From positions 154,909 to 218,908 of the forward strand of contig NZ_JAAXPO010000004.1 of the NCBI RefSeq assembly GCF_012396485.1: a stretch of 64,000 nucleotides of DNA, read 5' to 3'. The stretch comes from Leuconostoc holzapfelii (GTDB lineage Bacteria > Bacillota > Bacilli > Lactobacillales > Lactobacillaceae). The notes under the pieces are model-generated. The model saw nothing but the letters and a program-made list of their open reading frames with translations. It did no database searches and was not told the origin of the DNA. The translations under genes and the position numbers were made by a program. Numbering within the stretch: the stretch's first letter is position 1; every line of letters begins with the position of its first letter. Shown one piece after another: positions 31,176 through 36,917 of this stretch.

Positions 31176-31616
31176 TTAGCGTGCAGTCTCAGATGTCGGC
31201 GTAAACAACAAGGCGACCCCTGTCCAAAGACGTGCAAATGCCGTGATCCCCAGCCTAATTTGTCCAACAGAAGGATCCGGATCAGCAATGTCTAAGGTGT
31301 GTGCTGTTCGACCATAAATAACCACATAGTGATAGTCCCCAGTGAGTTGCCGCATATGGGCAATCATTGGCAGCGGTAAGTCCGGTTGTGTGAATAGTGT
31401 CTGATTAGCTTGCAGCGCTACAGTATCAAAATGCAGTGTTTTTGCCGCGGTTAATAACTGATACGCCGTTGTCCCATCAGGTCCGGTTGCCGTCATTTGG
31501 CGCAACGTTGCCAGCGGTGGACATGCCCCGTGATATGAAATCACCATCGCCAGGGCGGCAACCCCGCAGCCCATTTCATCAGCTTGGGCAATATATTGGA
31601 ATGTTTGTTGTCTCAT
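31176..31616 (-). CDS. Stand-alone C39 (double-glycine leader) peptidase
   Basis: A 146-residue protein that is only a C39 peptidase domain, with no membrane segments and no ATPase. Gln11, Cys17 (in QADEMGCGVAALAM), His96 (in GDYHYVVIYG) and Asp112 (in DIADPDPS) sit at exactly the numbers of the oxyanion Gln and catalytic triad I recall for the streptococcal ComA peptidase domain. C39 domains normally form the N-terminus of ABC exporters and cut peptide precursors after Gly-Gly. Here the gene follows, 83 bases downstream on the same strand, an XRE regulator that itself carries a Gly-Gly leader, so that protein is the likely substrate. No good ribosome site precedes the ATG at 31616. Function as a cytoplasmic maturation protease is inferred. 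Confidence 0.85.
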   Translation of the reverse strand: MRQQTFQYIAQADEMGCGVAALAMVISYHGACPPLATLRQMTATGPDGTTAYQLLTAAKTLHFDTVALQANQTLFTQPDLPLPMIAHMRQLTGDYHYVVIYGRTAHTLDIADPDPSVGQIRLGITAFARLWTGVALLFTPTSETAR

Positions 31617-31699
31617 TTTATACAGTTAATCAAATACCATATCGGCATGCTGTTTTTACCACAATCCGACTATAATAGGTTCTAGATAAGTTGCACTGA

Positions 31700-31954
31700 T
31701 TATTTTAGCATCCGGTCACAAGTGGTGTTAAACAGGGCCGCCATTTGAATAATGAGGTCAACGTCTGGCACCCGCTTGCCTTCTTCATATCGCGCAATGG
31801 TTGATGTGCAAACGTTTAATTTTTCAGCCAACGCACGGCGGCTTAATTGTGCACCCGTTCTTAACGTCAATAAGTTTTTTGGTAGCTGATGCCCACCAGT
31901 CACTTGTTTTAATTGTTCATCCGTCATTTGACGATAGTGTGTCTGATCCAACAT
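31700..31954 (-). CDS. XRE-family regulator with N-terminal double-glycine leader
   Basis: An 84-residue protein in two parts. Residues 1-21 end in DEQLKQVTGG and match a ComC/bacteriocin leader: hydrophobic residues at -15 (Tyr7), -12 (Met10), -7 (Leu15) and -4 (Val18) before Gly20-Gly21. Residues 22-84 are a complete XRE/HTH_3 domain (NLLTLRTGAQLSRRALAEKL, then NVCTSTIARYEEGKRVPD). Cutting after Gly21 would release a 63-residue DNA-binding protein starting HQLPK. The start at 31954 is set by GGAG upstream. It is divergent from a dual-HTH regulator and upstream of a free C39 peptidase. A chance N-terminal tail is the alternative, but the match at all four spaced positions argues against it. 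Confidence 0.85.
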   Translation of the reverse strand: MLDQTHYRQMTDEQLKQVTGGHQLPKNLLTLRTGAQLSRRALAEKLNVCTSTIARYEEGKRVPDVDLIIQMAALFNTTCDRMLK

Positions 31955-32010
31955 GATTTTCTCCATAGTTTCGTATGCCTACCATGACATGATATATTAG
32001 CCATTTGCCA

Positions 32011-32039
32011 ATACTATCATTGTACGAAAATCGTATCAA
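32011..32039 (-). promoter_or_regulatory. Promoter and operator of the leader-XRE/C39 unit
   Basis: Minus-strand TTGATA, 17-base spacer, TAGTAT. The palindrome TACGA-AAA-TCGTA (32023-32035) sits across the -35/spacer, and a related half-site TTTCGTA is at 31969-31975. An extended -10 for the divergent gene (TGATATATT, 31990-31998) places the palindrome just inside that transcript, so one bound protein could control both directions. Confidence 0.7.
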
Positions 32040-32056: not shown

Positions 32057-32785
32057 ATGACCATTGGCAATCAAATTAAATTGTTAAGACAAGCTAAAGG
32101 GCTTACCCAACGTGATTTGGCAGATGCACTCTTCATCTCTTTTCAGGCCGTCTCCAGTTGGGAACGACAGCAAAGCCAACCTACTGCTGACATGTTAATG
32201 ACTATCATTGAAAAATATCAACTGCCCAGTGATTTTTTCATGACGCCGACCAGCATACAAAAAACCACACAAGAAAAAGAACAAATCTTGCGTGGCTTTT
32301 TGGAGAGCCTCAAGTACTGTGCACATACCCAACCCAGCTATGAAATCATTGCCCAATTTGCGAATCTCCCTTGCACAATCATCCACCAACACTTTCCAGA
32401 TTATGACGCGCTCGTGAATCAATTGATGATGTCCGTTGATGAACAAATTAAACCCATCGTTGAAACTCATCTGCTCGCACACGACGACTTAATTACGACA
32501 TTTTCAACATACATGGCACCACGCTTATATGCAGAACGGGAGAAACTTCATCTGTTATACACCCGACCTTATTTGAGAGAAACCTGGTTGCACTTTATTA
32601 AACTACGTTACCAACAACTCATTGCCCAATGCCAACCAAATCCCATCGCAACCACCTACTTGCTTGATGTCCTCATTACCTTTATTTCAGTGTGGTTGAG
32701 TGATGCGCACCCTGAACCGCTAGCGGCATTCCAACAACGTATTGCCCAACTCACACATGTGCCAATCCAATCATGGTCAAAATAA
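32057..32785 (+). CDS. Regulator with XRE and TetR-like helix-turn-helix domains
   Basis: Transcription factor of 242 residues. Residues 1-60 are an XRE domain (IKLLRQAKGLTQRDLADALF, SFQAVSSWERQQSQPT). Residues about 85-135 look like a TetR N-terminal HTH (PSYEIIAQFANLPCTIIHQH, FPDYDALVNQLM), and the rest is an all-helical C-terminal domain like TetR ligand domains. Two DNA-binding units in one chain is unusual. It is divergent from the leader-XRE/C39 genes and shares their operator region, and has a paralogue at 36177. The ATG at 32057 follows TTGGAG. A terminator follows at 32781. Confidence 0.82.
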   Translation: MTIGNQIKLLRQAKGLTQRDLADALFISFQAVSSWERQQSQPTADMLMTIIEKYQLPSDFFMTPTSIQKTTQEKEQILRGFLESLKYCAHTQPSYEIIAQFANLPCTIIHQHFPDYDALVNQLMMSVDEQIKPIVETHLLAHDDLITTFSTYMAPRLYAEREKLHLLYTRPYLRETWLHFIKLRYQQLIAQCQPNPIATTYLLDVLITFISVWLSDAHPEPLAAFQQRIAQLTHVPIQSWSK

Positions 32786-36176: not shown

Positions 36177-36917
36177 ATGGCTCTTAGTAATCAAATTAAA
36201 GCGCTTAGAAAGTCCCTTGGACTCACCCAACAAGCATTTGCTGACCAACTTTTTATTTCATATCAATCCGTTTCAAGTTGGGAACGCGAAAAAGGCCATC
36301 CCACGGCCGAAATGATGTTAACAATCATTGATACTTTTGATTTACCGTTGAATTTTTTCATGCCCAACGCGCACACGCAAGATGCCGTTGACGATGAACA
36401 ACGCATTCTTGCGGCCTTTATTAAAAGTATGACCGCTAGCGCCGTGAAGGCCCCTAGCATGTCAACGGTCGCTAACTTTGCCGGTTTACCGCAAACACAC
36501 GTCACGCATTACTTCCCAACTTTTGACGACTTAGCTTATGCCACAATCAATGCTGTTGATGATAACATCAAAGCTACAGTAGAATCGCGATTGGCCGTCA
36601 ATGATGACATTTTAGCGATATTTGTGCAAGACCTTGCGCCATTACTTTATCAAGAACACGCTGTCTTACACATTTTATATACCCGCCCTTATATTCGTGG
36701 GGTGTGGGTACAGTTCCTCAAAGCAAAATATAAGTCCCTACTGCTCAAATATCAACCTGCGGCTGCCAACGACATCCTGGGCACCGAGTATTTCATTGAA
36801 ACGCTGACCGGTTTTATTTCGGTTTGGATGAGCCAAGAAACCCCTGAACCCATCGCCGCTTATCAAAACCGTATTCAGCAATTAACGACACGAGCCATTG
36901 TCAATTGGCATGACTAA
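36177..36917 (+). CDS. Regulator with XRE and TetR-like domains, paralogue of the 32057 gene
   Basis: A 246-residue transcription factor aligned along its whole length with the product of 32057-32785. XRE domain at 1-60 (IKALRKSLGLTQQAFADQLF, SYQSVSSWEREKGHPT), TetR-like HTH near 88-135 (MSTVANFAGLPQTHVTHYFP), and the shared C-terminal LYTRPYIRG, GFISVWM and PEPIAAYQNRIQQL. It follows the MocR gene by 63 bases and has TGAGGA before its ATG. No divergent partner is present here, so it may act on the other locus or on distant targets. Terminator at 36929. Confidence 0.8.
   Translation: MALSNQIKALRKSLGLTQQAFADQLFISYQSVSSWEREKGHPTAEMMLTIIDTFDLPLNFFMPNAHTQDAVDDEQRILAAFIKSMTASAVKAPSMSTVANFAGLPQTHVTHYFPTFDDLAYATINAVDDNIKATVESRLAVNDDILAIFVQDLAPLLYQEHAVLHILYTRPYIRGVWVQFLKAKYKSLLLKYQPAAANDILGTEYFIETLTGFISVWMSQETPEPIAAYQNRIQQLTTRAIVNWHD

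Follow-up and report, generated by a model that had tools for sequence, protein, structure and literature searches.

A small XRE regulator with a conserved, C39-type double-glycine leader at its N-terminus (GG-XRE) is likely a substrate of C39 proteases. As we judge it, C39 proteases probably cut GG-XRE and thereby couple the control of bacteriocin genes to the capacity for processing or export, a minimal peptidase-regulator pair being kept in the clade to which the window belongs (the window is the whole 64-kb stretch of DNA analysed here). We lean slightly towards the wider reading that bacteria possess a class of transcription factors processed by the bacteriocin machine, in which C39, free or within an exporter, would set expression as a read-out of export capacity, and of which the window would hold the minimal two-gene form. 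Secreted peptides are the known carriers of double-glycine leaders. A regulator tagged with such a secretion leader and cut by C39 would likely be a new kind of genetic switch; the earlier note was aware of no described system of this sort, and within the open-licence text available no transcription factor with a double-glycine leader was found.

Table 1 Features of the GG-XRE/C39 locus (positions in the window).
Feature	Position	Strand	Details
Terminator-like hairpin after the C39 gene	31148..31169	-	Sequence scan
Stand-alone C39 cysteine peptidase	31176..31616	-	146 residues; PF03412 117.7 bits (cut-off 22), E = 4e-34
GG-XRE, XRE regulator with N-terminal double-glycine leader	31700..31954	-	84 aa; Pfam HTH_3 38.3 bits (cut-off 23)
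Helix-turn-helix part	31700..31891	-	63 residues + stop; five-helix XRE domain complete in the model
Leader MLDQTHYRQMTDEQLKQVTGG	31892..31954	-	Codons 1-21; predicted cut between Gly21 and His22
Candidate GG-XRE promoter, TTGATA - 17 - TAGTAT	32011..32039	-	9/12 consensus matches
Inverted repeat TACGAAAATCGTA, candidate operator in the promoter spacer	32023..32035	.	Intergenic alignment
Divergent XRE regulator	32057..32785	+	242 residues; neighbours GG-XRE

As outlined in Table 1, the window's GG-XRE comprises 84 residues. An alternative in-frame ATG lies upstream at 31966, but since it overlaps the ribosome-binding sequence ATGGAGAAAATCATG that serves the ATG at 31954, the latter is the better start. 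Translation of this frame confirmed the proposed 21-residue leader, in which the terminal GG is preceded by hydrophobic residues at all four spaced positions of a double-glycine leader (Val at -4, Leu at -7, Met at -12 and Tyr at -15). Furthermore, the NCBI profile bacteriocin_sig (TIGR01847) matches residues 8-21 with 15.9 bits against a curated cut-off of 15.7, and a six-frame scan of the whole source genome (G000, 1.76 Mb in 18 contigs) gave two matches at E <= 10, of which the GG-XRE leader was the better; at E <= 1 the profile matches 8 of 23 GG-XRE family members. A search of the same genome with PF10439 returned nothing at E <= 1. The protein is not a class II bacteriocin precursor, whose cargo is small, secreted and antibacterial; its cargo is an HTH_3 domain, assigned by Pfam above the cut-off (E = 1e-9) and with the five-helix fold of XRE proteins in the AlphaFold model. 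This model (24 sequences, mean pLDDT 86.8, leader 69-77) places the HTH helices at residues 24-34, 39-46, 50-58, 65-74 and 79-83 and a predicted leader helix at residues 12-17, corresponding to positions -10 to -5. According to the available part of PMC6959990, leaders bound to PCAT1 and LahT form a helix at -10 to -4.

The C39 gene starts 83 bp downstream of GG-XRE on the same minus strand, and no clear ribosome-binding site was found before it. The description of its product as a bare C39 peptidase proved correct, the Pfam match being strong (Table 1) and Gln11, Cys17, His96 and Asp112 all being present. These catalytic Gln, Cys, His and Asp residues are invariant in 15/15 aligned C39 domains, five of which are free. 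PCAT/AMS exporters carry C39 fused to membrane and ATP-binding domains, the exporter-borne relatives having frames of 717-726 aa; the window's frame stops at residue 146, where the domain ends. By sequence the window peptidase is thus a Peptidase C39 member outside PCAT. Its model (pLDDT 90.7) was matched by Foldseek to the ComA peptidase (5xe8/3k8u) with TM 0.88-0.89 and an rmsd of 1.3 A, and to the leader-bound LahT domain (6mpz) with TM 0.84-0.85. Counted by offset from the catalytic Cys, the groove residues A55 and I59 of PCAT1, named as such in the accessible portion of PMC6959990, would correspond to A51 and L55. On the Pfam assignment of the neighbour to C39 peptidases, a reading of the two genes as a toxin-antitoxin pair appears unlikely.

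Within the source genome the free C39 is the sole full-length C39; a second match is partial (20 bits), and a C39 exporter was not found. The one other GG peptide of this genome is a salivaricin-like precursor, so that the peptidase has at least one further candidate substrate. This lantibiotic precursor lies outside the window (contig C11, L129:6534-9672) accompanied by what looks like a piece of LanM and by an ABC pair, and a 481-bp stretch of the region shares 87-93% identity with four plasmids of Streptococcus (three of S. salivarius, one of S. equinus). Since neither a full LanM nor a LanT was seen in the 16 kb read around it, the region looks like a partial, recently acquired cluster. 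The peptidase itself is not intact in every strain, because two of the eight clusters of C39 proteins look broken: in P0048, which comprises 15 contigs, the frame is lost before the catalytic His, and P0046 carries an internal deletion. A further cluster, P0047, is cut short.

Conservation of the leader was analysed among homologues. A search of 5.8 billion proteins gave four close matches and a profile search 39, part of which are leaderless; the leader-bearing matches, where the source is named, come from Leuconostoc species and one Latilactobacillus sakei. A named homologue of the window's regulator, 87% identical, is from Leuconostoc lactis. In the 25-member alignment two sequences share 87% and 83% identity with the window protein and the other 22 share 27-42%. 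Position -1 is Gly in 25/25 leaders and -2 is Gly in 20 (Ala in four, Cys in one). Ile or Val occupies -4 in 25/25, Leu, Met or Ile -7 in 25/25, and Leu, Ile or Met -12 in 24/25; -15 is hydrophobic throughout (Phe or Tyr in 22, Cys or Ile in three), and at -5 and -11 a hydrophobic residue occurs in 0/25. Positions of the -4, -7, -12 and -15 type are those reported for substrate binding by PCATs in the available parts of PMC7018657 and PMC6959990. The complete motif is satisfied by 24/25 leaders as opposed to a mean of 0.009 (maximum 1) after residue shuffling of each leader, which rules out a chance origin of the pattern, although kinship among the 25 means that they are not independent cases in this comparison. 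Evidently, the expected conservation of GG and the spaced hydrophobic residues holds even in the distant members.

Several sequences were left out of the 25: the near-duplicates P0003, P0007, P0009 and P0016 and the L. fallax genome copy (near P0020); the 5'-truncated P0006, P0027 and P0028; P0030 (L. citreum) and P0031, which have a Gly-Ser ending and no clear start at the leader; the G222 member with its shorter leader; the leaderless P0032, P0035-P0039 and P0041; and the HTH-deleted P0033, P0034 and P0040. The last three are 63-residue proteins that keep the leader region with a Cys-Gly end and have partly lost the HTH by internal deletion. The four Ala-Gly leaders may be cut poorly. One Ala-Gly member belongs to a plasmid-borne exporter operon, in which the annotation shows just a short ATP-binding piece, next to a transposase, for the exporter. 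In a tree calculated from the HTH part (50 rows, 62 columns; 25 control rows, the empty NO_L124 being dropped) five changes of the leader label were needed, four to five in bootstraps, but a constraint holding the GG rows together was not rejected (p-AU 0.227), so that the leader may have arisen once or several times.

The family members found, as recognised by sequence, come from Leuconostoc and from a small number of other Lactobacillaceae. Thirteen GG-XRE genes occur in 9 of 19 Leuconostoc genomes, another three belong to further genera of this family (G025, G365, G222), and a plasmid of L. mesenteroides and one of Latilactobacillus curvatus each carry one; as leaders were read at 30 loci of the 397 genomes sampled from the family, the member count is a lower bound. 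A scan of genome contigs with a closer alignment yielded five loci. Among the best matches of each genome (at most 13 candidates), samples of 395 genomes from the order and 398 from the phylum contained none above 70 bits outside Lactobacillaceae; one match outside the order (G900) reached 69.9 bits and has no leader at its likely start. Leaderless XRE relatives (72-80 bits) of one other genus occupy a single housekeeping-type locus in 5/5 loci read, and neither C39 nor a GG peptide was seen in about 9 kb at any of the five. Their flanking genes we take to be thioredoxin-reductase-like and phosphoglucomutase-like.

Outside the window's clade most GG-XRE genes are found next to genes of bacteriocin-type GG peptides. 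A separate GG peptide lies within 1.5 kb at 13/15 of these loci as compared to 1/42 control XRE loci (p = 6e-10), and the difference persists against 39 distinct control loci (1/39, p = 1e-9), which allows for the duplicate pairs L066/L102, L076/L103 and L077/L104, several other controls being close relatives. Both misses have non-standard leaders visible by eye (Ser at -7 in L037, a Gly-Ser end in L095), the sole control match (L112) is unlike a real leader, and the three GG matches counted at L080 are GG-XRE itself and two separate peptides. For example, GG-XRE of L. gelidum (L028) directly follows an exporter and its accessory gene, overlapping the latter by 8 bp, and is followed by two GG peptide genes, while the second copy of this species stands at the head of another pair of GG peptide genes. 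The L. mesenteroides plasmid (L095) shows an 8-bp overlap of GG-XRE with the end of the accessory gene as well. One strand of G365 (L079) carries in succession the genes of an exporter, its accessory protein (two ORFs), GG-XRE and a GG peptide, and a two-component system is present at the L. curvatus plasmid locus. At L047 (8225-8461, G008) we noticed a 78-residue ORF in which the start of a C39 domain is joined to a tail resembling the end of the P0024 GG-XRE; it is likely an internal deletion scar of an exporter-regulator operon.

The link to C39 could also be followed across genomes. A C39 match above the cut-off was detected in 9/9 Leuconostoc genomes with GG-XRE versus 4/10 others (p = 0.008; 13 of 19 genomes in all), and full-length C39 alone gave 8/9 versus 3/10 (p = 0.015), so that the expected co-occurrence held. 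The proposal of a stand-alone peptidase beside the regulator stood for the window's clade (3/3 species); elsewhere it did not, as those C39 domains that do occur in the bacteriocin-type loci form the N-terminal part of an ABC exporter. Leuconostoc inhae (G007), with two GG-XRE genes, gave a single C39 match, a fragment of 97 residues. C39 exporters were found without GG-XRE in three Leuconostoc genomes (G012, G017, G018).

In the window's clade the order of divergent regulator, GG-XRE and C39, together with the flanking genes, is identical in two related species and hence in 3/3 in total. Exporter and bacteriocins are absent near GG-XRE in all three; no GG peptide gene lies within 1.5 kb in any of them (0/3), and none that is believable was seen in the 64-kb window. 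For the three species pairs dN/dS amounts to 0.09, 0.06 and 0.10 for GG-XRE and to 0.19, 0.22 and 0.18 for C39, figures which are rough because dS is above 1 for both genes in the two more distant pairs; the leader taken alone gave 0.11-0.24 from very few sites. The C39 domain is under purifying selection in these three species.

With respect to these results the following course of events can be envisaged. C39 would dock the GG-XRE leader in the groove that it uses for bacteriocin precursors, and in the window the neighbouring peptidase would cut after Gly21 and free the 63-residue DNA-binding domain. With just 2-4 residues between the cut site and helix 1, the cut may be sterically hard. In bacteriocin loci, where the peptidase is the exporter's own domain, precursors and GG-XRE would consequently compete for it, and the share of GG-XRE that is cut would tell the bacteriocin genes how much processing or export capacity is free. 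As for the window's clade, the soluble peptidase alone would remain, encoded beside the regulator, after exporter and bacteriocins had gone from the locus. Retention of the cutting domain by itself, up to the C39 boundary, argues against export as the sole purpose; it suggests that what has been conserved is leader removal rather than export, and that GG-XRE acts on DNA in its trimmed form. Trimmed GG-XRE might activate or repress, the sign being a guess. If this scheme is true, the role of C39 proteases extends from secretion to gene control, there is a simple explanation of how producers of bacteriocins adjust the synthesis of precursors to their export, and the window's clade offers a small two-gene proteolytic switch.

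The intergenic region upstream of GG-XRE contains a candidate promoter and operator (Table 1). The promoter call is weak alone, because five such sites occur in the region versus 3.8 expected in shuffles; in a three-species alignment the -10 element is identical and the -35 element differs by one base in both relatives. An inverted repeat within this candidate promoter makes autoregulation of GG-XRE plausible. One arm of the repeat is imperfect in both related species (TACGAAGATCGCA). A shared operator across Leuconostoc was considered and discarded, as no common palindrome was present upstream of ten GG-XRE genes. At one locus (L081 in G008, upstream of 9959) a perfect 20-bp palindrome, GTACAACATTTATGTTGTAC, precedes the GG-XRE gene and is a good operator candidate. 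The divergent regulator has a paralogue at 36180-36917 (both about 245 residues, 44% identical), which is located after a MocR-like gene and near pdx-like genes. Relatives of the divergent regulator (42-43% identical) occur at five Leuconostoc GG-XRE loci (L028 as a fragment, L031, L033, L037, L047). We rejected it as part of the conserved module, as these relatives are nearer to the 36180 copy (48-51%) than to the neighbour of GG-XRE (42-43%).

Four other explanations have to be weighed. GG-XRE might be a regulator depleted by export, for which the flagellar anti-sigma factor FlgM is the model: the exporter would cut it as cargo and pump the DNA-binding part out, so that GG-XRE would vanish when the exporter runs. 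The position of the gene among those for exporter, accessory protein and GG peptides fits this idea, as does a size close to that of the PCAT1 substrate CtA. However, the leader persists in 3/3 species of the clade although a search of the window's genome found no C39 exporter, and a folded domain is predicted as the cargo; we regard export depletion as unlikely. Slightly lower still we place docking without cutting, in which the leader would tether GG-XRE to a free or exporter-borne C39, hidden from the DNA until bacteriocin precursors displace it. It would account for leader-binding positions that are more constant than the -2 Gly (20/25), but not readily for catalytic residues that are invariant in all 15 C39 domains, the five free ones included, nor for the retention of the -1 Gly in 25/25.

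We think it improbable that the pair in the window's clade is a relic of a lost bacteriocin locus, in which C39 no longer matters. The broken clusters P0046 and P0048, the faster evolution of C39 relative to GG-XRE and the lack of GG peptides within 1.5 kb in 3/3 species and of believable ones in the window would agree with decay; a C39 dN/dS of about 0.2, catalytic residues intact in three species, the stop at the domain end and the constant gene order in 3/3 species would not. Finally, a short N-terminal extension is nothing exceptional for a small XRE protein, and a loose leader match was found in 1/35 readable controls, upstream of that control's probable start, but that the GG ending merely reflects a chance feature of the XRE N-terminal helix, unrelated to C39, is hardly credible given the motif count (24/25 versus 0.009 expected), the bacteriocin-type context and the TIGR01847 score above its curated cut-off.

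The preferred reading, a GG-tagged regulator that would be trimmed by C39, can be compared with several known systems. The pair ImmR/ImmA of ICEBs1 likewise consists of a small XRE regulator and an adjacent protease gene, an order kept in 3/3 species in the window's clade, and positions 24-84 of the GG-XRE family profile match the ImmR DNA-binding domain (7t8i). In the available part of PMC8960796 ImmA is a metallopeptidase that cuts and thereby inactivates the repressor ImmR within its C-terminal part, at F95-M96. The window's protease, in contrast, is not an ImmA/IrrE metallopeptidase but a C39 cysteine peptidase, and it is predicted to remove an N-terminal, secretion-type leader. HetC of Nostoc resembles the present case in that a PCAT is linked to gene regulation during cell differentiation; the accessible text of PMC10986499 reports no GG-leader gene near hetC and gives the HetC substrate as unknown. 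The PCAT/AMS exporters ComA, PCAT1 and LahT share with the window the peptidase domain (TM 0.84-0.90, best of each) and the leader pattern, and the layout of GG-XRE (21+63 residues) is similar to that of the PCAT1 substrate CtA (24+66 residues, as stated in the part of PMC6959990 available). They differ in that the cargo of GG-XRE is a DNA-binding domain and the window's peptidase has no transporter. Closest in context are the class II bacteriocin loci of Leuconostoc and Latilactobacillus, in which relatives of GG-XRE stand beside GG peptides, accessory protein and exporter, and sometimes a two-component system; the GG peptides of these loci are small and predicted to be secreted, whereas GG-XRE is a transcription factor that bears the same kind of tag.
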